Below, in pieces: positions 3,799 to 23,511 of a DNA stretch of 32,025 bases. Source of the DNA: an uncultured delta proteobacterium (lineage in GTDB: Bacteria; RBG-13-61-14; DRUE01); contig CAIYYW010000062.1 of the NCBI GenBank assembly GCA_903930515.1, forward strand, positions 1 to 32,025, in the 5' to 3' direction. Within the stretch, counting starts at the first letter, position 1; each line of letters opens with the position of its first letter. A model generated the notes under the pieces. That model had not been told where the DNA came from, searched no databases, and worked only from the letters and a program-made list of their open reading frames with translations. The position numbers and the translations under genes were made by a program.

Positions 3799-4398
3799 TT
3801 AAACCCCCAACTCCCGCGCGCGCAGCCCCTCAATGATCATCCCCAAAAGATCCTCAGTTTTCCTCTTCATTTCCTTCAGGCCGATCCCGCGCGAGAGCGC
3901 CATGTCCAGAGCGGCGATCAGATCGGCCAGGTTCCGGGCGATCTTGCCCGCGTCTTCAAACGCGAACAGCCCCTGGTCCTTCCCCTGTTCCAGGATCTCC
4001 GCGAGCAATTCCTGTTCCCGCCGGGCAAGTCTTCGCTCCTCCTTCTCCAGGCCCTCCCACCGGACCACGCCCGGATAAACCTTCAGTCGGCGGAGGTTCA
4101 ATAGCTCGCCCAACCCCCGCACCCGCTCCAGGAACAGAGCCTGCAACTTCAGAGCCGGGTTCTCGCATTCCGAAATCGCCCGGCTGATCCGGTTGAGCAA
4201 CTCGTTGGTCTCCCCCCGGATCACTGCTAAAAAAATGTCCCGCTTGTCCTCAAAATAATAATAGACCGTGCCCTTCCCAACCCCGGCCTGGAGCGCAATC
4301 TCGTCCATCGTGGTCTTCTTCGGGCCGAATCTTCCGAACAGTCCCCGGGCCGACTCCAGAATGTTTTCTTTCAACTCCTTTTCCCTTTTCCGCGCCAT
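3799..4398 (-). CDS. TetR/AcrR-family transcriptional regulator
   Basis: 199 residues from the ATG at 4398, chosen because AGGAGG stands 8 bases before it on the minus strand and because TetR proteins normally start with a short basic segment like MARKREKELKENI. The reading frame stays open upstream, but that part contains the promoter and operators. The N-terminal helix-turn-helix is clear (about residues 27-60: TTMDEIALQAGVGKGTVYYYFEDKRDIFLAVI); the rest is an all-helical ligand/dimer domain with no recognisable specificity. Two similar palindromes overlap its promoter, so autorepression is likely. Nearest potential targets are itself, mutS downstream and the divergent dksA cluster. The ligand is unknown. 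Confidence 0.9.
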   Translation of the reverse strand: MARKREKELKENILESARGLFGRFGPKKTTMDEIALQAGVGKGTVYYYFEDKRDIFLAVIRGETNELLNRISRAISECENPALKLQALFLERVRGLGELLNLRRLKVYPGVVRWEGLEKEERRLARREQELLAEILEQGKDQGLFAFEDAGKIARNLADLIAALDMALSRGIGLKEMKRKTEDLLGMIIEGLRARELGV

Positions 4399-4416
4399 TT
4401 GCCGATCCTCCTGATT

Positions 4417-4476
4417 TTCGACCAATTTAGTCAAATCGTCAAAATATAGTTTATCGCTTTTAGACCAGTTGGTCAA
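4417..4476 (-). promoter_or_regulatory. Promoter of the TetR-type gene with two operator palindromes
   Basis: On the minus strand TTGACC (4471-4476), a 17-base spacer and TAAACT (4448-4453) form a promoter. One palindrome, GACCA-AC-TGGTC with TTGAC...GTCtAA flanks (4460-4476), covers the -35. A similar site, GACTA-AAT-TGGTC (4417-4434), lies between the -10 and the ribosome site. The centres are about 42 bases apart, close to four helical turns, so two dimers could bind the same face. This is the typical layout of TetR-family autorepression. Confidence 0.6.
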
Positions 4477-4600
4477 GCGCAAAGCTTTTCTTGCCCCCGC
4501 CCTCAATGACGGGTCGGGCAGGATCGGAACCCAAGGCCGGTGAACCGGCCTGGAAAAGTGGAGGCGGGAGGGCAAAGTTTTTTCCGGGACGGTCGGGAAC

Positions 4601-4628
4601 TTGAAAGTTTCCGGAGATATGATATTTT
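4601..4628 (+). promoter_or_regulatory. Possible promoter for the dksA cluster
   Basis: TTGAAA (4601-4606), a 16-base spacer and TATTTT (4623-4628) precede the dksA ribosome site by about 20 bases. Upstream, a perfect inverted repeat GGCCGGT-GA-ACCGGCC (4535-4550) could form a hairpin; it has no T tract. Confidence 0.35.
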
Positions 4629-4659
4629 TAAAAGCTACTCTGGCAGAAGGAGGTTGTTG

Positions 4660-5034
4660 ATGCCGCAGAAAATGAACAAGAAGGATTTGGAAAATTTTCG
4701 GAAACTGTTGCTGCAACAGTTGCGCGAGTTGAAAGACAAACTGGGCGGGGCGGTGGACGAGCTTTCCGAGGAGCCGGAAATGATGGCGGACCTTTCGGAC
4801 CGGGCCACTGCGGAGACCGAGCTTCATTTTGACTTGCGGGTGAAAGACCGGGAGCAGAAGCTGATTGATAAAATCACCGAGGCGCTCGCCCGGATCGAGG
4901 AAGGCGGTTTCGGGGTTTGCGAGCGGTGCGGGGATCTGATCGAGCTGGAGCGGCTGAAAGCGCGTCCGATCGCCACGCTCTGCATTGATTGCAAGACCGA
5001 GCAGGAGCGGGACGAGAAGAGCCGGGGCGAATGA
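4660..5034 (+). CDS. dksA: DksA/TraR-family RNA polymerase-binding zinc-finger protein
   Basis: 124 residues, close to the size of short DksA proteins. The coiled-coil tip carries the DxxDxA motif (D44-L-S-D47-R-A49) that DksA inserts into the polymerase secondary channel, followed by the conserved LRVKDREQKLIDKI helix and a C4 zinc finger (C87, C90, C108, C111). In well-studied bacteria DksA acts with ppGpp to tune rRNA and amino-acid promoters. The start at 4660 is fixed by AGAAGGAGG six bases upstream; the frame is open further 5' but unlike the family. The stop overlaps the next start (ATGA at 5031-5034), indicating translational coupling with the BamD-like gene. Retention of the acidic tip and all four cysteines suggests an active DksA rather than a degenerate TraR-like copy. 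Confidence 0.92.
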   Translation: MPQKMNKKDLENFRKLLLQQLRELKDKLGGAVDELSEEPEMMADLSDRATAETELHFDLRVKDREQKLIDKITEALARIEEGGFGVCERCGDLIELERLKARPIATLCIDCKTEQERDEKSRGE

Positions 5035-5954
5035 AAAGACCCATCCTGCTTTTGCTCTTGCTCTGCCTGTTGCCGGGGGCGCGGGTCCTAAGCCAGCCGG
5101 AACCGCAATCGCCTTTTTACGAGCCGGGCGAGGGCGGGGGTCTTCGGAATTTGTTCAATCAAAAGGCCAAGGCGCCGGAGGCGGAAGAAGATTTATATCG
5201 GGAGGCCCTGGCGGACTTTGAAGGGAAACCGACCTGGCTGGCCCGGCAGAATCCGGAATCGGCGGAAAAGGCCAAGTCCGATAAAAACCTGCGCTGGCTC
5301 TATTACCGGACCAACTATCAGAGGAGCATAGAACTTTTTCAGAAACTGATCTACGAGTATCCCTTTACCAAGCATCTGGCCGAGGCGGAATTGGATATTG
5401 CGGAGGCCTATTATAAAACCAAGGACTATGAGATCGCGCTCCAGGCGTATCAGGATTTCCTGACCCGCCATCCCCGTCATCCCCAGGCCGAATACGCGCA
5501 TTTCCGGATCGGGTTGTGCCATTTCCAGGGGCGGCAGAAAAACCCGCTCCGCGACCAGAGCGAAACCGAGGCGGCCCGGGAGGCGTTCCAGACCTTGCTC
5601 CTGATGTACCCGGAAACCGGGTACCGGGCGGAGGCGGAAAAATATTCGGGGCAATGCGAGGAATTGCTGGCCACCCGGGAGATCAAGGTCGGGGATTTCT
5701 ATTATCAGGGCAAGGAATACTGGTCGGCCAGCCTGAGATACCGCCGCGCCTGGGTTGAATATCAGAACAGCAGCCGGACCGAGTATGCCTTGTTCCGGAC
5801 CGGGCTGTGCTTTCAGAAACTGGGCCGGACCGCGGACGCGCTCCGGACTTTTGGTGAATTCCAGGGCCGGTATCCGACCAGCAAATACCTGAATCAAACC
5901 GATCAATTGGTTAAGAAGTTGAATGAAAAGACCAAAAGTCCAGCGACCCCTTGA
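5031..5954 (+). CDS. BamD-like outer-membrane assembly TPR protein
   Basis: 307 residues with an N-terminal export signal (MKRPILLLLLLCLLPGARVLS) and several helical TPR-type repeats: YQRSIELFQKLIYEYPFTKHLAEAELDIAEAYY, YEIALQAYQDFLTRHPRHPQAEYAHFRIGLCHF, and a third near the C-terminus. The segment RDQSETEAAREAFQTLLLMYP followed by Y.AEAEK is very like the BamD signature (RDQT.T..A...F..L...YP.S.Y...A). BamD is a periplasmic lipoprotein of the BAM complex that inserts outer-membrane beta-barrels. Odd here: the signal has a cysteine inside its hydrophobic core but no good lipobox, so membrane anchoring is uncertain. It overlaps dksA by 4 bases and the next gene by 32 bases. A more general TPR (YbgF/CpoB-like) role is the main alternative. 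Confidence 0.75.
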   Translation: MKRPILLLLLLCLLPGARVLSQPEPQSPFYEPGEGGGLRNLFNQKAKAPEAEEDLYREALADFEGKPTWLARQNPESAEKAKSDKNLRWLYYRTNYQRSIELFQKLIYEYPFTKHLAEAELDIAEAYYKTKDYEIALQAYQDFLTRHPRHPQAEYAHFRIGLCHFQGRQKNPLRDQSETEAAREAFQTLLLMYPETGYRAEAEKYSGQCEELLATREIKVGDFYYQGKEYWSASLRYRRAWVEYQNSSRTEYALFRTGLCFQKLGRTADALRTFGEFQGRYPTSKYLNQTDQLVKKLNEKTKSPATP

Positions 5955-10441: not shown

Positions 10442-12244
10442 ATGCCGAAGAAGAAAAAGCTGGTGGAACTGGATGAGATGATCAAGAAGGGCAAGCGTCA
10501 GGGATTCCTCACCTACAACGATATCAATGACCACTTGCCCGACGAGTTGATCAATCCCGACCAGCTTGACGATCTGATGACGATGTTCGGCGAGATGGAC
10601 ATCAAGATCGTGAACACCCCTTCGGAAGTCAGCCCGGCCGAGGAAAAGGCCCCCGCGGCGTTTGAGGCCGTGGTGGAAGCGGAATTGGAACCGAAACCGG
10701 CCCCGGAGCGGGCGGTGGCCTTTGAAGATTCCTACCCGGAAGTGGACCCGGTCCGGATGTATCTCAAGGAAATGGGATCCTATGATCTGTTGAACCGGGA
10801 AGGCGAAGTGGAAATCGCCAGCCGGATTGAGGAGGGTCGGAGGAAAGTCTTGTCTGCGATGATCAGTTGTCCGATCTCAATCAGGGAAGTGATCCAGTGG
10901 GGAGAGAAGTTCAAGCTGGAAGAAATTATGATGCAGAACGAGGAGGTTGAGCCGGAAGAGTTTGAGGAGCTGGAGGGAGACGACGATTTTGAGTTGGAGC
11001 CAGGGCAGAGCCGGAGGGAAGTGGTCAGGCTCATTGATAAAATCACCCACGAGGATGTCAAGCTCCGGGAAACCCAAAAAGGGCTGTGCCAGAAAAGATT
11101 GCGCAGGGACAGAAAAAGGAAAATTGAGCATAAGATCAACAAACGGCTGGAGAACCTCCTGCAACTGATGAAAGCGATCAACCTCAGCGACCGACAGCGC
11201 TCCCAGATCGTGGCCAAAATCAGGGAGCAGATGTGCCGGGCGGAAAAATCCGAGGACGGCATAAAAAGGATTGAGCATAAATTCAAGATGAGCGAGGCCG
11301 AAATCAAGGACCTGTCCTCCCGCGGAAAGGACAGCGCCCGGGTCCGCGCCCGGATTGAGGAACAGACCAAGGCGACCTTTGAGGAACTATATCAGGCCCA
11401 TAAAAATATCCGGGAATGCCGCGACGGGATCCGGGCGGTCTTGAAGGAAACCCAGATCGGGAGCGTCCCCGAACTCCGCGGCCTGATCAGGCAGATTGAA
11501 GCGGGGGAAGTGGAAATCCGGAGGGCCAAGGACGAATTGATCCGGGCCAACCTCCGGCTGGTGGTCAATATTGCAAAAAAGTATACTAATCGCGGACTAC
11601 AATTCCTTGACTTAATACAAGAGGGCAACATCGGGTTGATGAAGGCGGTGGAAAAATTTGAGTATCAGCGCGGCTACAAATTTTCCACCTACGCCACCTG
11701 GTGGATCCGGCAGGCGATCACCCGGGCGATCGCGGACCAGGCCCGGACCATTCGGATCCCGGTGCATATGATTGAGACCATCAACAAGCTGATCCGGACC
11801 AGCCGCTACCTGGTCCAGAAGCTGGGGAGAGAGCCGTACCCGGAGGAGATCGCGGCGAAGATGGAGATGCCGATCGAGAAGGTGCGCAAGGTCTTGAAGA
11901 TCGCCAAGGAGCCGGTCAGTCTGGAGATGCAGATCGGCGAGGAAGACGATTCCCGGCTCGGGGATTTGATCAAGGACGAGACCATCCCCGGACCGCTTGA
12001 CAAAGTGATCACGCAAGACCTGGTGAACCATACCCGGGATGTCCTAAGCTCGCTCACCCCCAGAGAGGAACGCGTGGTCCGACTCCGGTTCGGGATCAGC
12101 GAAAAATCCGACCATACCCTGGAGGAAGTCGGAATGGACTTTGATGTCACCCGTGAGCGCATCCGCCAGATTGAGGCCAAGGCCCTGCGCAAACTCAAAC
12201 ATATCAGCCGGATGAAGAAGCTCAAGACGTTTATTGAACACTGA
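10442..12244 (+). CDS. rpoD: Primary RNA polymerase sigma factor (sigma-70)
   Basis: 600 residues, preceded by a good ribosome site (GGAGGAATAAA-ATG). Region 1.1 covers about 1-60, region 1.2 begins [16 protein letters not shown] (about 101), then a long charged non-conserved region. Region 2 is [18 protein letters not shown]...[16 protein letters not shown]...[17 protein letters not shown] (about 365-440, -10 recognition and melting). Region 3 is [17 protein letters not shown], and region 4 is [14 protein letters not shown]...[29 protein letters not shown] (-35 recognition). The final 84 bases (12161-12244) have a diverged second copy at 14204-14287 beyond a restriction-modification cassette, so the present C-terminus may have been brought in by that insertion; it remains intact and family-like. 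Confidence 0.98.
12161..12244 (+). repeat. 3' end of rpoD, copy A of the direct repeat flanking the restriction-modification cassette
   Basis: These 84 bases (from ATCCGCCAGATTGA to the TGA stop) match 14204-14287 at 69 of 84 positions by my count, without gaps. Similarity stops abruptly to the left of both copies. The differences are mostly synonymous or conservative (K/R, M/A, T/V in the protein). Confidence 0.9.
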
Positions 12245-12253
12245 TCATTAGCT

Positions 12254-12298
12254 ATGGCGCGCCGCCATTGGGTTCGGGCTTTTGCGCTCCTTAGCGCA
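12254..12298. terminator. Two short hairpins between rpoD and the restriction gene
   Basis: ATGGCG-CGC-CGCCAT (12254-12268) and TGCGCT-CCTT-AGCGCA (12283-12298) are perfect 6-bp hairpins in the small gap between convergent genes. Neither has a strong T tract on either strand, so termination is only a guess. Confidence 0.3.
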
Positions 12299-12301
12299 GA
12301 C

Positions 12302-13072
12302 CTAAAGAGCATCGAAGAATTGGTCAAGCAACAATGCTGAAAGGGCATTGCCGGAAAAATTTTTCAACCGACGGGACATCTGGCCGCTTTCCGGAATCCA
12401 GATAATGCCGTCTAAAATTGCGACTGTGACAGCTTCTTTGAATGAGCTGCTGGCAAGTTTCAGGGCGTCTTAAAAAGCGCGATTTTGGTTGCCGCCTTCG
12501 GCGCCGATAAATTTTCCTTCTCCAACAATATATTTGCCTTTGGCTCTGGCGACAAAATCAGGCTGCTTTTGAATTCCGCATCCGAGCTGATTTGCGAACC
12601 CCCTCAGGTTTTCCCCGGCGCCAGACAAAAAAGCAATTCCGCGCTTCTTTGATTTAAATTCTTCCTCGTCGGTGCAGAAAAAATATTTTTGCTTCAGCCA
12701 GCAGCCGAACATCGCCCCCATTCGCCGGTTAAATTCAATCGGCTTCTGCAACCCATCAACCACTCCATTTGGCCCCATTTCTCTTAAACGGGCGCAAATC
12801 CTTCTGACCGTTTCAGGATTCTTGCGAATCTCCTTGGGACTTTCCCGAAGGAAGCTGACATAGGGGTCATTGAATGGGAATTTATCAAAATCAAGCATAG
12901 TTTCCAGGAGCATAAAATCATCTTGGGATTGGAAAGCCTTATCCACCGCGCTCAGCTCTTTGGGAGACAGGACGCGAGGCTCTTGTTTCGGCGGAGGATA
13001 TATGTTGGTCAACCTATCGAGATAACCGCCCTTTTTGACCAGCGAGAAACTCTTTTCAACCCATGAATACAT
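12302..13072 (-). pseudogene. Type II restriction endonuclease interrupted by an in-frame stop codon
   Basis: The open part runs from ATG 13072 to a TAA at 12470-12472 (200 residues). The same frame then continues without further stops for 55 codons to TAG at 12302-12304, encoding DALKLASSSFKEAV...GQMSRRLKN...LLDQFFDAL, which reads as a natural C-terminus. A PD-(D/E)xK nuclease core is visible: P171-D172 and E185-G-K187, followed by GAEGGNQNRAF, a pattern in which related enzymes continue as 'F.DAL'. So a single nonsense change splits the gene just after the catalytic motif. It starts inside the methyltransferase stop (TAATG overlap), showing co-translation. The cleavage site is unknown; a Tsp45I-like group is possible but not established. 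A truncated but active form cannot be excluded. Confidence 0.8.
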
Positions 13073-14157
13073 TATATGCTTCCGTGAAGCGACGGTTGTT
13101 TGAGCCCACTCAATCGTTCTCTACAGACTTTGATCGCTGATGGAGAATTATCCACCCCAATCCACTGCCTTCCCATTTCTTCCGCAGCAGCCAAAAAACT
13201 TCCAGAACCACAAAATGAATCCAAGACCAAGTCCCCCTCCCTGCTGGAGGCGGAAAGGATGAGCTTTAATAACCCCATATTCTTCTCGGTTGGATAGATT
13301 GGATATTGGGGATCTTTGAAGACCCAAACATCTTGAAGCACTTTTCCTGCTTCGGCGGCTTGCTCAGCATATTTCTTCAAGCGAGGGTTGCCCGTGGATG
13401 ACCGTTCAATAAGCCCCGCCTCATCCATTTCGCTTAAAACGGATGGCGAGTATCGCCAATGTCTGCCGGCCGGCGGATTCAATCCTTTCCATTTTTTCCC
13501 GCTATCTCCATTTTTGGTCTCGCCGGGCGCGTGGAGAGGGGTTGTGGTATATCTTCTTCCATCATCATCAATTCTTGGAAAAAGCCTTTCCAGCTCCTTT
13601 TCCATAAAAGGCATGCGAGGAGAATTCCAGACCAGCTCACTGCTCTTTGAATAGAACAGAATCATATCTTTGATGTTGCTATATCCGTGCCGGTGAAAAT
13701 TTTTAGGATTACATTTGATGCGGGTGATATCATTTCGGAATTGCTTTATTCCGAAAATCTCATCCATCAGAACTTTGACATAATGACCGATCTTGTAATC
13801 AATATGAACATAGATTGAGCCATCATCAGCCATTAACTCATGCAACAGTTCCAATCTAGGCCTCAAAAAATCTAAATATTTGGCTCCGGTCAAGATATCA
13901 TGATAAGCCGTTTGCCCTTCGGAAGATCGGCTTATTGTCGCGGCGCGTCCCGAGGAAATGATAAAGCTCTGGCCCGTTCCATAAGGCGGATCAATATAAA
14001 CCAATCGCACCTTGCCATGCACCGACGAGTCCGATAAGAGTTCCCCCAGCACCTCCATGTTATCACCCAGGTAAAGTTGCGTGACCCAGTTCTTGGGATG
14101 ATTGGATAGGTCCAAAACAAATTTAGCTTCCCTTTCCGACAAGTGTTCCCTCCCCAC
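13072..14157 (-). CDS. Type II DNA methyltransferase (beta class, amino-methylating, DPPY)
   Basis: 361 residues from a GTG at 14157. The catalytic motif IV DPPYGTG (56-62) precedes the AdoMet motif I DSFCGSGSFLAAAEEMGRQWIGVD (about 315-338), the order of beta-class N6-adenine or N4-cytosine methyltransferases; the DPPY tetrapeptide favours N6-adenine. The central part (WKGLNPPAGRHWRYSP) is typical of target-recognition regions in this class. A TTG at 14142 is an attractive alternative start, because GGGGAGGG lies 5-6 bases before it while the GTG has no ribosome site. It is followed by the restriction gene with a one-base overlap. Its base composition appears lower in GC than flanking rpoD and rnhC, consistent with transfer. 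The gene is intact, so it probably still protects DNA. Confidence 0.93.
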   Translation of the reverse strand: MGREHLSEREAKFVLDLSNHPKNWVTQLYLGDNMEVLGELLSDSSVHGKVRLVYIDPPYGTGQSFIISSGRAATISRSSEGQTAYHDILTGAKYLDFLRPRLELLHELMADDGSIYVHIDYKIGHYVKVLMDEIFGIKQFRNDITRIKCNPKNFHRHGYSNIKDMILFYSKSSELVWNSPRMPFMEKELERLFPRIDDDGRRYTTTPLHAPGETKNGDSGKKWKGLNPPAGRHWRYSPSVLSEMDEAGLIERSSTGNPRLKKYAEQAAEAGKVLQDVWVFKDPQYPIYPTEKNMGLLKLILSASSREGDLVLDSFCGSGSFLAAAEEMGRQWIGVDNSPSAIKVCRERLSGLKQPSLHGSI

Positions 14158-14203
14158 TATTCAACCTTTCTTAAATAAATTACCAAATTGGCTTAGAAAG
14201 TCA

Positions 14204-14287
14204 ATCCGCCAGATTGAAGCCAAGGCCCTGCGCAAGCTCCGCCATATCAGCCGGGCCAAGAAGCTGAAAGTTTTTATTGAGCATTGA
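14204..14287 (+). pseudogene. Displaced 3' end of rpoD (copy B), remnant
   Basis: Encodes [27 protein letters not shown] and a TGA stop, the last 27 residues of a sigma-70 region 4.2, without any 5' part. The frame runs open upstream for a short way into unrelated sequence with no credible start. It is in the same orientation as rpoD, 1.96 kb from the functional copy, and only about 82% identical to it at the DNA level. The likeliest reading is the original rpoD terminus pushed aside when the cassette joined rpoD at codon position 12161. Confidence 0.88.
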
Positions 14288-14329
14288 TCCCGCATCGTAA
14301 AGATAATAAGATGATATCTTGACCAGCGT

Positions 14330-14348
14330 GGCGGACGATTGTCCCGCC
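14330..14348 (+). terminator. Possible former rpoD terminator
   Basis: GGCGGAC-GATT-GTCCCGCC forms a stable GC stem (with one bulge) about 43 bases after the displaced rpoD stop. The following sequence is only mildly T-rich (CATTCGACTTTT). It supports copy B as the original 3' end. Confidence 0.4.
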
Positions 14349-14412
14349 GCCGTCATTCGACTTTTCAACCTTTTATCCGCTCAAGTCCTTGCCGCGCTCC
14401 GGAACCGCCTGA

Positions 14413-14440
14413 TTGAGTGTAAGAGAAAAGCCGCTATAAT
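14413..14440 (+). promoter_or_regulatory. Promoter of the CAU tRNA
   Basis: TTGAGT (14413-14418), 16-base spacer and a perfect TATAAT (14435-14440); the predicted start is about 5 bases before the mature tRNA 5' end. Confidence 0.65.
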
Positions 14441-14451
14441 AAGCAGTGGAT

Positions 14452-14524
14452 GGGCCCATAGCTCAGGTGGGAGAGCTGCCGGCTCATAACCGGCGGGTCC
14501 CAGGTTCGAATCCTGGTGGGCCCA
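14452..14524 (+). tRNA. tRNA with CAU anticodon (tRNA-Met or lysidine-modified tRNA-Ile2)
   Basis: Full cloverleaf: acceptor GGGCCCA/TGGGCCC, D arm GCTC/GAGC, anticodon arm GCCGG-CTCATAA-CCGGC with anticodon CAU, 5-base variable loop, T arm CCAGG-TTCGAAT-CCTGG, discriminator A. The 3' CCA is not encoded and must be added by nucleotidyltransferase. The acceptor does not show the initiator C1:A72 mismatch and the anticodon stem lacks the three G:C pairs of initiator tRNA. So it is elongator Met or Ile2; the sequence alone does not settle which. Confidence 0.93.
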
Positions 14525-14684
14525 TTTTTTCCGGGCGGAGGCTTGAGGATCCGGGTTAAATTTTCCGGATCGGCTCCCGGCCTTGAAAAGCGGTTTCAAA
14601 TCTGATATAAAGGAAAGCCGATGAATAATTTTATCTGGAGAAACAATGATCGGGATTAACCGCGGTTATGGAATTGCGAGCCGG

Positions 14685-16370: not shown

Positions 16371-18596
16371 TTATTTTGAAGACCCCAGCCGCTTGAGCGC
16401 GCCGGAAATTACTTCCATCGGCGGCTTGAACCCGGACTGGTCCAGTTGGGAAATTTCTCGGCATCTTTGCCATTGCGAGAGCGCGAGCTGTTTTTCCCCG
16501 GTCATCTCATACACCTTGGCCAGGTCCATACAGACATAAATCTGGTTTGGGAACCGGTTTAAAATTCCCTGGAAAATACGGATGGCCCGCTCGGTATTTC
16601 CGCTTGACGCCAAGGCCCGCGCCAGTTGAATCTGGTTCATAGCAAAATCGGGCCGCTTGGCCGCGGCTTTCTCCAGATAGGGCAGGGCCTCGCGGGAACG
16701 GCCCAGCAGATTCAAGGTAGCCCCCAGGTAATAATTTAAATCCACATCCTCAGGCGCCAGCCTCACTCCCTGCTCAAACTCTTGCCGGGCATATTCAAAT
16801 TGTTCCAGCATCAAGAGCAATTTGCCCAGGGTAAATCTTTCCCGAGCCAGCAGCGCCGGGCCGACCCCGGCCGGGGCCGGGCTGGAAAAGCCGCGCTGGA
16901 AGTCAATTTGGAAATTTTGGATCGCGGAGGCCGACTCCGGCTTCTTCTTCAAAAAGACCGCGGCCTGGCCATCCAAATATACCAGCGCCCATCCGGGGTC
17001 TTGATTCAGGTCCAGGAACAGGTTTTGGATCTCCGGAAAATGGCTCAGCAGCACGGCGTCAAAATTCCATTTCCGATCTTCTTTTTGGAAATCCGGCCGG
17101 TTTTCCAGCGCCTGGACATAAGTCTTGAAAAAATCCTCCCCGTACAACTCCAGCCGCGGATCAATATAAACCTTCCAGTCCGGGTACCCGGCCCAGATCA
17201 GATATGAGGAGGACGCGTCTGAAAAAATTTTCAAACCCGCCTTCTGACCCGCCCGGTCGCACATCAGCCTCAAAGACCGGGCCGCCCGGATCGGATACTC
17301 GGTTTCCAGGGCGCCGATCCCGAATTGAGCATTAGTCCCGTTCCGGACATAAAAACGGCCGCTGATTACATCCGCCGTCAGCCAGATCATCCCGGCCAGA
17401 ACCGCCAGGCCGAGCATCGGCAGGAATCTGCGCAAACGCATTTTCAGCCCGGGAAACGGCAAAAAAGACTGGTCTTGGTTTTCAGCCAGGATCCGGCTCG
17501 CCAGCGCAACCGTGATGATGGCGAACAAAGCCACATTCCGGAGCGCGGTTATGGAGAGGAAAAGGAAGCAGAGCCAAAGCGCCAGAGAAGCCGGATAGAC
17601 GCGCCGGCGATAAAATAAGACCGCGAAAAAGAGCGCGGATACAACCATCAGGATGATATATATAGAGAGGTCAAACCCGGGCAGATGGGAAAATGGATTC
17701 CGGAACTCGTAAATGACCTTTCCCAGAAAACTTCCCGGATGAGCGATTTCCCGAAACAGGATCCACGGAAAAATCGCGCCCCGAAAGCCGGAAGGGTTAA
17801 CCAAGGTCAGCGGGATGGAGATAGCCAGGGCAAGCCCCAGCCCGAATGCGGATTTGCCGCGATCGGCCCTCGGGGAATTCCTCCGCAACCACCAGTCCGG
17901 GATCAAAAGCAGTTCCTCCAACAGAAACGCAGACAGGATTACAAAATAAATCGGCCACAAGCCCTCGCTGTTCACCCATAATAAAAGCAGCGCCGGCATC
18001 AACGCGACCGCGATTTTTTTGCCCCGCCTGATCCGATCAATCAAAAGGATCTCCAGGGCCGCATAAAAAAAAGTAAGGATTTCCGGCCGGAGCTTTAGTC
18101 GGATGGAAACCGTGAGCAGGGCGATGATCCCGAACAGGATGACGCCGAAATATTTTCTGGGGTTAAAGCCCGGAACCAGGATCAAAATCCAGGTCAAGCC
18201 GGTTAAGAGCGATCCGAACAGTATCATCCCGGCGTATCCGGCTTTTTGGTATAGAAGATATATGATTAGTTGAAAAATCCACTGGGGATCTATCCATTCC
18301 TTGCCCGCGATAGTGAAGGAATAGATGTCCTGATCCGGCACCCGGTGAGTCTCAAAAATAATCTGCCCGGTCTTTAAATGCCAGAAGATGTCCGTGTCAA
18401 TCAGGGTGTGGAAGCTGATCAGGAAGGAGAGTGCGATGATTCCGGCAAGGCAGAGCCATCCGAGAAATCCGTCCCAGGCCGGCGGGACCAAAGCTTTTCC
18501 GGCCGGACCCTGTTTTTGTGCGCGCTTGCTCTCAGGAGCGATTTTTGCAACCTGGCCCGGGGGCTTGCTTTTTGGTTTTGATTTCTTTTGGGACAT
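16371..18596 (-). CDS. Multi-pass membrane protein with C-terminal TPRs (GT-C-like), copy 1
   Basis: 741 residues from ATG 18596. That start is chosen because a strong promoter (18640-18667) lies downstream of the earlier ATG at 18662, and because MSQKKSKPKSK matches the lysine-rich start of the paralog. After this tail come about ten hydrophobic helices. The first outer loop has DTDIFWHLKTGQIIFETHRVPDQDIYSFT, where the early acidic residue after helix 1 resembles GT-C glycosyltransferases. A soluble domain follows (FSDASSSYLIWAGYPDWKVYIDPRLELYG), then two to three TPRs (about 600-720). Transfer of a lipid-linked sugar is a reasonable guess only. The downstream paralog-start region is 84 bases away, and each copy has its own promoter. 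Confidence 0.8.
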   Translation of the reverse strand: MSQKKSKPKSKPPGQVAKIAPESKRAQKQGPAGKALVPPAWDGFLGWLCLAGIIALSFLISFHTLIDTDIFWHLKTGQIIFETHRVPDQDIYSFTIAGKEWIDPQWIFQLIIYLLYQKAGYAGMILFGSLLTGLTWILILVPGFNPRKYFGVILFGIIALLTVSIRLKLRPEILTFFYAALEILLIDRIRRGKKIAVALMPALLLLWVNSEGLWPIYFVILSAFLLEELLLIPDWWLRRNSPRADRGKSAFGLGLALAISIPLTLVNPSGFRGAIFPWILFREIAHPGSFLGKVIYEFRNPFSHLPGFDLSIYIILMVVSALFFAVLFYRRRVYPASLALWLCFLFLSITALRNVALFAIITVALASRILAENQDQSFLPFPGLKMRLRRFLPMLGLAVLAGMIWLTADVISGRFYVRNGTNAQFGIGALETEYPIRAARSLRLMCDRAGQKAGLKIFSDASSSYLIWAGYPDWKVYIDPRLELYGEDFFKTYVQALENRPDFQKEDRKWNFDAVLLSHFPEIQNLFLDLNQDPGWALVYLDGQAAVFLKKKPESASAIQNFQIDFQRGFSSPAPAGVGPALLARERFTLGKLLLMLEQFEYARQEFEQGVRLAPEDVDLNYYLGATLNLLGRSREALPYLEKAAAKRPDFAMNQIQLARALASSGNTERAIRIFQGILNRFPNQIYVCMDLAKVYEMTGEKQLALSQWQRCREISQLDQSGFKPPMEVISGALKRLGSSK

Positions 18597-18639
18597 ACGC
18601 TTCCCGCTTCCGGCAAAAAGATCGGCCGGAGTTGTCCTA

Positions 18640-18667
18640 ATTGTATTTGAGCGAAAGACCAAGTCAA
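18640..18667 (-). promoter_or_regulatory. Promoter of the copy 1 membrane protein
   Basis: On the minus strand TTGACT (18662-18667), 16-base spacer, TACAAT (18640-18645). Both hexamers match at 5 of 6. It places the transcript start near 18633 and so supports ATG 18596 as the gene start. Confidence 0.65.
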
Positions 18668-18679
18668 TCCGGGAAGGAA

Positions 18680-20920
18680 CTATTTTTGCAGACGCTTGAG
18701 CGCCTCGGAGATTTCATATCCCTGACGCTGGAACCTGATCGGGTCCCGCCGGGAAATCTCCTGGCATCTCAGCCATTGCTCATAAGCCCGGTCCTGGTCC
18801 TTGACCATTTCAAAAACCTTGGCCAGGTCTATGCAAGCGGAAATCTGGTTGGGGGATGTGTTCAAGACGCCCCGCAAGATCATAATCGCCCGGTCGGGTT
18901 TGCCGGTGGAAGCCAAAGCCCAGCCTAGTTGAATCTGCCCGGGAAGGTCGTCGGGATAATTTTTCGCGTTCTCTTCCAAATAGGGGAGCGCCTCCGGGTA
19001 GCGGCGCAAATTATTCAGGGTCAACCCCAAGTCATTTATCAGATTCGGGTCCCGGGGATCATACTTGATTCCGTCTTCAAATTCATAAACAGCCAATTCT
19101 TTATGATTGAGCCAAAGCAACTGAATGCCCCGGTTATACCTCTCCTTAACCATTGAGAAAGCATCCTGCTTTTTGGGCAAAGGAGTATCAAGTTTTTCAG
19201 TCAAGTTCATCCGGTAATTTTGAATGGCCCCTGAAAACGAAGGCCGGTTTTTCAAGAAGACCACATTTTTTCCGTCCAGATATATCAAAACCCAGGCCGA
19301 GCTATGCGCAAGATTCCTGACAAAATCGCTTCCGGTTTCCATCCGATATGCGCTCACGACCACAAGATCAAAATCGTATTTCTGGTCTTCATCCGTAAAC
19401 TCCTGCCAGTTAGCCAGCAACGACGAATATTTCTTGATAAACTGATCACCGTATAATTCCATCCGGGGATCCACATAGACCTTCCAGGCCGGATACCCGG
19501 CCCAGATCAAATAGCCCGCGTTGTGGATGTCGGTGAAAATTTTCAAGGGTCCCGCGGATTCCAACTCCGGAATTGATTTCAAGAATTGACCGGCCCGGAT
19601 CGGGTAATCCGTTTCCGAAGCCCCGATCCCGAACCGGCAAAATAACATATTATGGATAAAAAACTTGCTGCTGATGATTTCCCCGCTCAACCAGACCATC
19701 GCGATAATTAAAATTCCCGCGGCCAGGGGCCGAACCCGCAAAAGCGGATCAGAAAAACGCTTGATCCAAGACCATCCCGGTTCTGAAATGTCCAGGATCA
19801 GCCTGCCCCCGAGCATCGCCATTACCACCGCAAACAAGGGCACATTCCGGTTCGCGGTCGCGGAGATATAAAAAACCCCCCCGCAGATGATCAAGTCCGC
19901 CAGGTATAATCTCCGGGAAAAGATCAGGAAAATAAACAGCAGCCCGGAGAAAACGCTGAGAGCAATATACGCCGGCCTCACCACCGGATTATTCAATATA
20001 AACGGACTTTGAAATTCGCCGATATAACCCCCAATAAAACTTCCGGAAGAAGAAATCTCCCAGAGCAGTTTGAGCGGGAAGACCACCCCTTTCCATCCAT
20101 AAGGGTTGATCCAGATCACCAGAGCGGAGACCGCCAGGCAGACCGCAAGTTCCAGGATCGCTTTTTTCCCGCCCGCGCCAGGCGCCAGCTTGAAGTATTT
20201 TTGCAGACCGAACCAGGGCAAAGCCAGAACCTGCTCGGCTAACACCGCCACCAGGATAAAAAGACCCATTGGCCACAAGCCGTGGCTGTTGACCCAGAGC
20301 AGGATCAAAACTGGAATCGGATATAGCGCTTTCCTTTTTCCCTGCCGATATAAATGCAACAAAAACAGCTCCAGGGCCAGGAAGAAAAAGGTGAAGAACT
20401 CGGGTCGGAGACGGAGCCGGCTGGAGACCGCCAACAGCGAAACCAACGCCAGCGGGATGATCCGGAAATATTTCTTGGAGGAATACCCCGGGACCAGGAT
20501 CAAAGTCCAGGTTAATGCCATTAGAATGCCGCCGAAAAAAATCATTCCGGCAAAGCCGCCGATCCGGTAAGCGATGTAAATGGCGAGTTGGAACAGCCAC
20601 TGCGAGTCAATCCATTCCGTGCCGGCCACGGTGAAGGAAAAAATATCCTGATGCGGCACCCGGTGGGTCTCAAAAATAATTTGCCCGGTCTTGAGATGCC
20701 AGAAGATGTCGGTATCTACCAGCGCGTGGAAACTCATCAGGAAAGAAAGCGCGATAATTCCGGCAAAGCAGATTCTGCCCAGCCATTGATCTATGGGAGG
20801 AGGAATTAAAACCGGAATCTTTTCCCAAAAAGCCGGTTCGTGGGACTGAGCCGCGGATTTCTTCTGGCCGCTTTTCTGGTCCTTAGCTTTTACCTTTTCC
20901 TGCTTCTTCTTCTTGCTCAT
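18680..20920 (-). CDS. Multi-pass membrane protein with C-terminal TPRs (GT-C-like), copy 2
   Basis: 746 residues, a full-length paralog of the next gene downstream. It shares the lysine-rich N-terminal tail, FHALVDTDIFWHLKTGQIIFETHRVPHQDIFSFT, the block of transmembrane helices, FRFGIGASETDYPIRAGQFL, YLIWAGYPAWKVYVDPRMELYG and C-terminal TPRs (DPNLINDLGLTLNNLRRYPEALPYLEENAKNYP and following). The two differ along their whole length, so the duplication is not recent. The loop Asp plus WHL motif is reminiscent of GT-C membrane glycosyltransferases, but no donor or acceptor can be named. Its promoter closely matches that of copy 1, suggesting parallel expression. Confidence 0.82.
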   Translation of the reverse strand: MSKKKKQEKVKAKDQKSGQKKSAAQSHEPAFWEKIPVLIPPPIDQWLGRICFAGIIALSFLMSFHALVDTDIFWHLKTGQIIFETHRVPHQDIFSFTVAGTEWIDSQWLFQLAIYIAYRIGGFAGMIFFGGILMALTWTLILVPGYSSKKYFRIIPLALVSLLAVSSRLRLRPEFFTFFFLALELFLLHLYRQGKRKALYPIPVLILLWVNSHGLWPMGLFILVAVLAEQVLALPWFGLQKYFKLAPGAGGKKAILELAVCLAVSALVIWINPYGWKGVVFPLKLLWEISSSGSFIGGYIGEFQSPFILNNPVVRPAYIALSVFSGLLFIFLIFSRRLYLADLIICGGVFYISATANRNVPLFAVVMAMLGGRLILDISEPGWSWIKRFSDPLLRVRPLAAGILIIAMVWLSGEIISSKFFIHNMLFCRFGIGASETDYPIRAGQFLKSIPELESAGPLKIFTDIHNAGYLIWAGYPAWKVYVDPRMELYGDQFIKKYSSLLANWQEFTDEDQKYDFDLVVVSAYRMETGSDFVRNLAHSSAWVLIYLDGKNVVFLKNRPSFSGAIQNYRMNLTEKLDTPLPKKQDAFSMVKERYNRGIQLLWLNHKELAVYEFEDGIKYDPRDPNLINDLGLTLNNLRRYPEALPYLEENAKNYPDDLPGQIQLGWALASTGKPDRAIMILRGVLNTSPNQISACIDLAKVFEMVKDQDRAYEQWLRCQEISRRDPIRFQRQGYEISEALKRLQK

Positions 20921-20995: not shown

Positions 20996-21198
20996 GTGGA
21001 TAATTTAAAAAATCTTTTTCCTTCGCCTGCGGCTCAGGGGGGCAAGCAGGGCAAGGATCAGTCCTCGGAATCGCGCGTAAACGCACTCGCACATTCAATC
21101 GGAATTGCGCTCCCGGATTCAGCAAAAATATATCAGGCGGGAACTTTTGGGTGAAAGTTGTTTCCCAAATAAGAAACCCCAAAGCAAAGGAGGGCACA

Positions 21199-22179
21199 AT
21201 GAATCTGGTAAAGGTTCTTTCAAGGGCATTCGGGATTCTGATCGCGGTTTCAGTATTTGCCGGAACGGCTTTTGCCGGGAGACTGACTTTGAACGACCGG
21301 ATCAGCGCGGGACCCTGGCTGGAAAAATCCGGGATCCAGATCGCGCCGCTCTATCTCTCCCATCCGGACTCTTCCCTTTCTTTTCTCAGCCTGGACGAGG
21401 CGACCAAGTCCGGCTTGATCAATGTGATGGAGACCAGCGATGTCAACCAACTCCTAGTGGAAAACCAGGGCAAGAAGCCGGTCCTGCTCCTGGCCGGAGA
21501 GGTGGTCAAGGGAGGAAAGCAAGACCGGATGGTGGGCAAGGATTTGATTTTAGGAGCGGGCAAGATCCGTAGGATCAGCGTGTTTTGCGTGGAACATGGG
21601 AGGTGGACTTCGGGCGCGGACAAAACCGAATTTAAAAGCGCGTCGGTGATGGCGGACAATGAGATCCGGCAAAAGGCGCAAAAAGGAGGAGGCTCAGAGG
21701 AGAATCAAACCGGGGTCTGGGATGAGGTGTCCCGCAGCCTGGGGGCCTACCGGGTGGCCGCGGCGCCTACCGGCAACTATCAGGAAATACTTAAAAGCGA
21801 TAAATATAAAGAAGGGGAGTCCATCGGGGATTTTTTCCTCGCCGCCTTCAGAAAAGACGACCAGCTCGCCGGGTTCGCCCTCGCTTATAACGGCGAGGTT
21901 CAGTCGGTGGAATATTTCGACAATCCCAATCTCGCCTCCAAATATAAGGAAAAATTGATCAGTTCTTATGTGACCGGCGCGCTCAAGGATTTGCAGGGTT
22001 CCAAAACCGTCTCCTCGGACGCGCTCAAGGATTTTGCCAACCAGGTTCTCAAGGACGAGAGTCATCAATACCAAAGCGATGATGACATTGTGGTTGAGTC
22101 CCGGTCCGGGAGCCTGGAAAGTTTTGAGCTGCAGAATTCCAAGGGCGCCCTGGTTCATTACGCCCGGTATCAGAAATAA
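21199..22179 (+). CDS. Secreted ARPP-1 (DUF6569) family protein
   Basis: 326 residues from ATG 21199, preceded by AAAGGAGG; the frame is open earlier but without a ribosome site. An N-terminal signal peptide (SRAFGILIAVSVFAGTAFAG, AFA cleavage motif) points to export. The body shows the ARPP-1 pattern: a 'GPWLEKSGIQIAPLYL' strand, then SGLINVMETSDVNQLLVENQGKKPVLLLAGEVVKGGKQDRMVGKDLIL, then the RISVFCVEHGRW strand. Related domains occur beside ADP-ribosylglycohydrolase and rhodanese-phosphatase genes and are thought to act in nucleotide or ligand metabolism; the role of exported single-domain versions is unknown. It is a single-gene unit ended by a strong terminator. Confidence 0.82.
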   Translation: MNLVKVLSRAFGILIAVSVFAGTAFAGRLTLNDRISAGPWLEKSGIQIAPLYLSHPDSSLSFLSLDEATKSGLINVMETSDVNQLLVENQGKKPVLLLAGEVVKGGKQDRMVGKDLILGAGKIRRISVFCVEHGRWTSGADKTEFKSASVMADNEIRQKAQKGGGSEENQTGVWDEVSRSLGAYRVAAAPTGNYQEILKSDKYKEGESIGDFFLAAFRKDDQLAGFALAYNGEVQSVEYFDNPNLASKYKEKLISSYVTGALKDLQGSKTVSSDALKDFANQVLKDESHQYQSDDDIVVESRSGSLESFELQNSKGALVHYARYQK

Positions 22180-22338: not shown

Positions 22339-23511
22339 ATGAGGACATATGAAAAGACACATCCCTGGATAAAATTTTCAGTTAACCTGAGCCAGGTGCA
22401 TCCACAGCTTTGGATAAATCTTGGGGAATGCAAATCCAAATGCGAGCATATTACCGGGGTTCCCTTAAGACCGACCACCGCCAAAAAGCTTCATCAGCTT
22501 TATTTGGCAAAGGGCGTGCTGGCTACAACCGCAATTGAAGGAAACACCCTGTCCGAAGAAGAGGTTTTGAAACATCTGGAAGGCAAACTGAAATTGCCCC
22601 CTTCCAGGGAATACCTCGCCCAGGAAATAGACAATATCATTAAGGGATGCAATCAGATCACCGATGCCATTGCTTCCGGCTCGCCGCCCGGCTTATGCCT
22701 GGAAAGAATCAAAGAACTGAATGCAATTGTCCTGGAAAAACTGCAATTTGAGGAAGGGGTCATCCCGGGCCGGATCCGAAAGTATTCGGTGGGGGTTGCT
22801 CGCTACCGAGGCGCTCCCTGGGAAGATTGTGAATATCTGCTGGAAAGACTTTGTGATTGGCTTAACGGGGAAGATTTTAAGTCAAGGCCAGGCGAGGGAA
22901 TTATTTATGCGATCATCAAAGCGGTTGTCGCCCATCTTTATCTTGCCTGGATTCATCCGTTTGGAGACGGGAACGGACGCACCGCCCGGTTGGTTGAATT
23001 TCAAATTCTGATTTCTTCCGGGGTTCCCGCGCCCGCGGCGCACCTGCTGAGCAATCATTATAATTTGACTCGCTCTGAATACTACCGGCAGTTGGAACAG
23101 GCTTCCATCTCGGGCGGAGAATTTCCGCCCTTCATAAGTTATGCGGTCCAAGGATTTTTGGACGGCCTGCGAAGTCAATTGGAAATCATCAGAGACCAGC
23201 AATGGGATATTGTCTGGAGAAATTATGTCCACGAACAATTTAGAGCAAGGACTAAAACCACAAGTCAACGGCGTCAGCGCGAGCTGATCTTGGAACTTTC
23301 CAGAAAGACTGAGCCGGTGCCGATTCCGGAATTAAAACAGATAAGTCCCGCCATGGCGGAAGCGTATGCTCGAAAGACCAACAAAACTATTCAACGGGAT
23401 ATTAACACCCTTATTAAGATGGGTCTGGCGGAAAAAACCACCCAGGGCTTGCGGGCGAAGAAAGAGATTATCCTTTCATACCTGCCGGTAAAAGCTGAGG
23501 ATGCATCCTAA
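22339..23511 (+). CDS. Fic-family protein with N-terminal inhibitory helix and C-terminal winged-helix region
   Basis: 390 residues. The active-site loop is complete: HPFGDGNGRTAR (H206 onward), matching HxFx(D/E)GNGRxxR, so AMP (or other NMP) transfer to a hydroxyl side chain is expected. An inhibitory motif TTAIEGN (about 57-63; pattern S/T-xxx-E-G/N) lies N-terminal, the class II arrangement in which the Glu blocks ATP gamma-phosphate binding. The C-terminal ~90 residues (RRQRELILELSRKTEPVPIPELKQ...KTIQRDINTLIKMGLAEK) look like a winged-helix DNA-binding domain. No antitoxin gene adjoins it, consistent with built-in inhibition. Start at 22339 follows a GCAGGGA ribosome site. The gene seems lower in GC than its neighbours, so transfer is plausible. 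It ends 4 bases from the convergent protease gene. Confidence 0.92.
   Translation: MRTYEKTHPWIKFSVNLSQVHPQLWINLGECKSKCEHITGVPLRPTTAKKLHQLYLAKGVLATTAIEGNTLSEEEVLKHLEGKLKLPPSREYLAQEIDNIIKGCNQITDAIASGSPPGLCLERIKELNAIVLEKLQFEEGVIPGRIRKYSVGVARYRGAPWEDCEYLLERLCDWLNGEDFKSRPGEGIIYAIIKAVVAHLYLAWIHPFGDGNGRTARLVEFQILISSGVPAPAAHLLSNHYNLTRSEYYRQLEQASISGGEFPPFISYAVQGFLDGLRSQLEIIRDQQWDIVWRNYVHEQFRARTKTTSQRRQRELILELSRKTEPVPIPELKQISPAMAEAYARKTNKTIQRDINTLIKMGLAEKTTQGLRAKKEIILSYLPVKAEDAS

Follow-up and report, generated by a model that had tools for sequence, protein, structure and literature searches.

How does a restriction-modification pair come to lie between two diverged copies of the end of an essential gene, and which of the two ends is native? 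The locus that raises the question lies on contig CAIYYW010000062.1 (assembly GCA_903930515.1) of an uncultured delta proteobacterium. We analyzed a stretch of 32,025 nt of this contig, hereafter the window, in which the gene for the primary sigma factor, rpoD, is followed by a cassette of two genes, a second copy of the rpoD end and a tRNA gene. Our reading, drawn from sequence comparison, is that the restriction-modification pair was probably imported from a related bacterium, the donor, whose rpoD end came with it, and that the resident end was kept as a relic. The features of the locus are as follows:

10442-12244, plus strand: rpoD, primary sigma factor (PRK05658/RpoD, regions 1.1-4)
12161-12246, plus strand: copy A, the functional rpoD 3′ end, putatively donor-derived
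12247-12301: spacer of 55 bases that separates the rpoD end from the stop codon of the endonuclease
12302-13072, minus strand: Tsp45I-family type II restriction endonuclease (PF06300) with an in-frame TAA inside
12470-13072, minus strand: translated part of the endonuclease, 200 aa (PF06300, E = 1.9e-37 for the shortened product)
12470-12472, minus strand: in-frame TAA of the endonuclease, with 55 more codons behind it that are still similar to relatives
13072-14157, minus strand: N4/N6 DNA methyltransferase, 361 aa, GTG start (PF01555, E = 6.8e-41)
14158-14203: AT-rich leader upstream of the methyltransferase, the right end of the cassette
14204-14289, plus strand: copy B, the orphan rpoD 3′ end, putatively the native end
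14290-14450: native rpoD-tRNA spacer, alignable in part to the congener
14451-14525, plus strand: tRNA with anticodon CAT, intact and in the same place in the congener

The rpoD end is present twice

Both copies are read directly from the window. Compared with itself, it returned the direct repeat 12161-12246/14204-14289 (E = 4e-20) with 71/86 nt identical, the common block extending two bases beyond the stop codon. The RpoD reading frame is intact, encodes 600 aa and terminates in copy A; no sigma-factor reading frame runs into copy B. The original prediction, that rpoD's final 84 bases are present in two direct copies around a methyltransferase-endonuclease pair, was confirmed, with 69/84 nt of the coding part identical and the same residue encoded at 25 of the 28 codons, stop included. 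It had also been pointed out that the similarity starts at the same base in both copies. This is true but trivial as evidence, since the start is simply where copy B begins. Because the repeat can start only there, the donor-derived stretch of rpoD may extend upstream of 12161.

The differences between the copies are unevenly placed, only 2 of the 15 falling within the first 35 bases (p 0.015). This scarcity fits a crossover in that region and is partly due to protein conservation. The 55-base spacer behind copy A is unlike the congener's sequence downstream of rpoD and contains the inverted repeat TGCGCTccttAGCGCA. A terminator hairpin after copy A was considered as a candidate and rejected, its folding being no better than that of shuffles.

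An empty site in a congener suggests which end is native

The comparison set consisted of three genomes of the phylum, the window's own included. The other two were a congener (G001, CAIUDS010000256.1), a lake-sediment metagenome bin of an uncultured delta proteobacterium from the same genus, and an order-level relative (G002). The empty site is directly visible in the congener: behind rpoD come a short spacer, the tRNA-CAT and the same next genes, the cassette is absent, and the window flanks, joined across the cassette, are collinear with this arrangement. The Tsp45I profile had no match in the congener's genome. A cassette-free relative joining rpoD to the sequence after 14287 and the tRNA had been anticipated, as had its greater similarity to copy B, and the congener showed both, agreeing with copy B at 28/28 codons and 74 of 84 nt and with copy A at 25/28 codons and 70 of 84 nt. 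The order of rpoD and then a tRNA with anticodon CAT recurs in several bacteria.

The congener's rpoD end encodes the residues of copy B exactly, and the 10/84 nt that differ are all silent. The silent share of random changes in the rpoD end is ~26%, and without selection 10 of 10 silent changes would arise by chance with a probability of ~2e-6. As these differences are all silent, copy B was a selected, working gene end until recently. Copy A is distinct, differing from both copy B and the congener at three residues. It has K and M where copy B, the congener and the order-level relative have R and A, and most of the other bacteria examined likewise have the R (K in copy A). Copy A is apparently derived at two of the three differing residues.

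The amount of divergence points the same way as the earlier argument that a simple target duplication is unlikely: copies A and B differ within one genome (15/84 nt) as much as rpoD does between two species (~16%; 84% identity over the last 345 bases). The ending FIEH, common to copy A, copy B and the congener, is missing in the order-level relative, which suggests close kin as the source of copy A. Copy A thus most likely came from a congener carrying the cassette, copy B being the displaced native end. The earlier proposal that the end of rpoD was replaced and the old end left behind is well supported by the congener's match to copy B and the derived residues of copy A, while the direction of the replacement is a reconstruction; copy B is closer to the congener than copy A by only 4 nt, and the position of copy A in the tree rests on 84 bases. 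A pattern covering the rpoD ends of copy A, copy B and the congener, applied in search of an A-type donor end, matched only the congener in a species-level genome collection and had no match in viral contigs.

The restriction-modification pair is not intact

The match to the Tsp45I profile, over positions 3-259, requires reading through one in-frame TAA, and the homologous frame runs past this TAA to a normal stop at 12302. The TAA comes after a conserved GE-K stretch, which we take to be catalytic. With 55 conserved open codons behind it, the TAA points to a recent inactivation of the endonuclease or to a strain variant. The pair is therefore not intact, the nonsense codon at 12470-12472 having been missed in the original prediction. 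The methyltransferase contains the motifs DPPYGTG and FCGSGS and its frame is open throughout; it is predicted to be the sole clearly functional part of the cassette, and the locus may now be one of a methyltransferase only.

The third-position GC content is ~0.50 in the cassette against 0.75 in the neighboring genes, marking the cassette as foreign to the codon usage of its host. Sites of the sequence GTSAC, the putative Tsp45I-type target, are mildly rare in the window (15 observed vs. 24 +/- 5 expected), a deficit too weak to date the cassette, and a GTCAC site at 12146, which starts 15 bases upstream of the joint, carries little weight.

The same Tsp45I-type gene pair was found in loci of four further genomes (G011, G279, G197 and G230; loci L064, L066, L067 and L068). 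One relative of the methyltransferase (L041, G197:C44:20308-21237) also has an in-frame TAA, and the decay of such systems may be repeated. Two viral contigs, L073 (IMGVR_UViG_3300009373_000160, 4064-5050) and L074, contain genes closely related to the methyltransferase gene (67% and 59%). On L073 the gene adjoins terminase- and portal-like genes, as judged by eye; a search for a matching endonuclease on the L073 and L074 loci found none.

A proposed route of import

Our reconstruction proposes a congeneric donor, a direction of replacement, a type of crossover and an order of events. First, a foreign restriction-modification pair would have become established immediately behind rpoD in another member of the genus or family, and DNA of this donor with its rpoD end and the cassette would then have recombined into the present genome. 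The left crossover would have taken place in rpoD, no later than the opening bases of copy A, and would have given the resident gene the donor end; the right joint would have formed 84 bases short of the end of the resident rpoD, leaving copy B, the spacer and the tRNA downstream. This right joint could have arisen by a crossover where the repeat begins and matches best, over 14-32 bases, given a donor with a duplicated end or circular DNA; alternatively, the joint could be illegitimate, only one end having been joined by homology. The nonsense codon of the endonuclease might have been acquired before or after arrival.

No site-specific element is needed for this route, for which a single homologous crossover in rpoD and a right joint that is short or illegitimate are enough. 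The left side is compatible with homologous incorporation, and the right joint leaves only 14-32 near-identical bases for it. The genome contains comEC and dprA, which allow DNA uptake, though such competence genes are widespread. The mirror event, with copy A native and copy B imported, is less likely and needs a crossover within the last five bases of the repeat.

Alternative explanations

Another way to arrive at two diverged ends would be an insertion in this lineage with an ordinary long target duplication, which would give two identical ends, one of them then being overwritten through homologous recombination with the rpoD of a cassette-free congener. We consider this unlikely. The repeat of 86 bases fits the duplications on the "order of 100 bp" that have been reported (PMC3874152), and an integrase is unnecessary. 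The cassette-free donor, however, must recombine inside the 86-base repeat and yet spare the cassette: a replacement of copy A must have its right end in the last 5 shared bases, and one of copy B its left end in the first 14.

The original prediction had likened the cassette to an integrative element that carries its own rpoD 3′ end. In such an account a site-specific recombinase would have acted from elsewhere or since been lost, and the layout has the look of it: an intact gene on one side, an orphan end on the other, and the best identity at the inner crossover end. Our searches nevertheless provided no support, and we regard this explanation as distinctly improbable. The cassette consists of two genes only, with no integrase or transposase between copies A and B. 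Among 386 genomes, a pattern for an orphan rpoD end starting at this codon, strict enough to miss other starts, matched the present locus and none of the 385 others. The ~90 viral loci holding rpoD-like ends contained no comparable second rpoD end. The nearest relatives of the methyltransferase do not lie beside rpoD ends, and a search for direct repeats around 30 other methyltransferase homologues found none comparable, the longest being 26 bases (L068). Finally, all of the inspected viral contigs that begin in an rpoD end (15/15) carry a tRNA with anticodon CAT on the same locus, offering an alternative target for integration. A tRNA is the usual kind of phage target.

The neighborhood formed by the rpoD 3′ end and the tRNA-CAT (window 10442-14525; L092, L102, L111, L116, L119 and others) looks like one of provirus integration. 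When phages and plasmids were searched with the RpoD end, those matches that carry an annotation were rpoD or sigma genes, and many more fell in stretches without an annotated gene. In one Klebsiella provirus record, rpoD lies upstream of mug and a tRNA-Met. The orphan-end pattern gave four matches in viral contigs, none of which proved to be an rpoD orphan on inspection.

It is very doubtful that the locus represents an integrase-free mobile restriction-modification unit that habitually travels with the primary sigma-factor 3′ end and re-completes it. If true, such a unit would be tied to an essential gene and doubly hard to lose.

An assembly chimera of two co-occurring metagenome strains has to be weighed in a draft genome of 401 contigs with 2.4% contamination, and we judge it highly improbable. 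The window contains no Ns, every 21-mer at the four junctions is unique within it, and the longest exact match between copies A and B is 17 bases, so the joints between copy A and the cassette and between the cassette and copy B should stem from spanning reads at the usual k. Even if the body of rpoD came from another strain, the succession of copy A, cassette and copy B would stay contiguous.

A duplication in place, with copy A diverging afterwards within the functional gene where it sits and could evolve, needs no donor but is hardly credible: the divergence between the copies is at species level with no excess of changes shared by them (of the 19 variable sites, copies A and B agree against the congener at 4, copy A and the congener at 5, and copy B and the congener at 9), though such shared changes should dominate, and the ~5 changes of an unselected copy B would all have to be silent (p about 0.001).

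Implications of the probable import

If the cassette was imported with the donor end, the direction of import can be read at a single locus from the two ends of an essential gene, the functional end being apparently of foreign origin and the native end a relic. The locus would then record an event of a known kind with unusual clarity. Should diverged end repeats be common around restriction-modification genes, some of the "long target duplications" would be imports from relatives, and the DNA-binding C terminus of the primary sigma factor would be exchangeable between species as a by-product. Diverged gene-end repeats give a simple search rule for more cases.

Two further observations concern other parts of the window. 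The adjacent regions 16371-18662 and 18680-20920 on the minus strand each encode a large TPR protein; the two are of similar size and match one and the same gene region of the congener, which suggests a tandem duplication in the present lineage. A Fic-domain protein lies downstream of an ARPP-1 domain protein on the same strand (21151-22179 and 22339-23511), and the two possibly form a functional pair.

Comparison with known systems

Integrative elements insert at the 3′ ends of genes, for example as islands at trmE (PMC8409611). As with these, the target appears to be completed by an element-borne end, with an orphan native end beyond, if the direction is as we propose; the present locus differs in that it lacks an integrase and that no further element was found at the site. 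In its gene content the cassette belongs with the Tsp45I system, a PF06300 endonuclease lying next to a PF01555-type methyltransferase, but an in-frame TAA cuts the endonuclease short.

Restriction-modification units are known to insert with target duplications of ~100 bases, the repeats being copies of the target (PMC3874152, PMC3031569); such long-target-duplication insertions were described by Nobusato 2000 and Furuta 2010, as summarized in the review PMC3874152. The present locus resembles them in consisting of the pair alone, without an integrase, flanked by direct repeats of ~100 bases, of which the cassette-free congener has a single copy. It differs from them in that its repeats are 82% identical (71/86) and apparently of different ancestry rather than copies of one target.

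Homology-facilitated illegitimate recombination combines homology at one end with an illegitimate joint at the other (PMC3240628) and would yield exactly the present layout, although it is a process and not a family. The minimal mobile elements of Neisseria are small cassettes, mostly of restriction-modification genes, that lie between conserved genes and are thought to move only via homologous recombination in the flanking genes (PMC3898611; PMC4269198). With the locus compared to one congener and one order-level relative, these elements are the closest in behavior: the cassette likewise lies between the conserved and syntenic rpoD and tRNA-CAT and is absent in the congener. What is new here, and sets the locus apart from the minimal mobile elements, is that the end of the flanking gene would have been exchanged along with the cassette and the displaced resident end retained as a relic.
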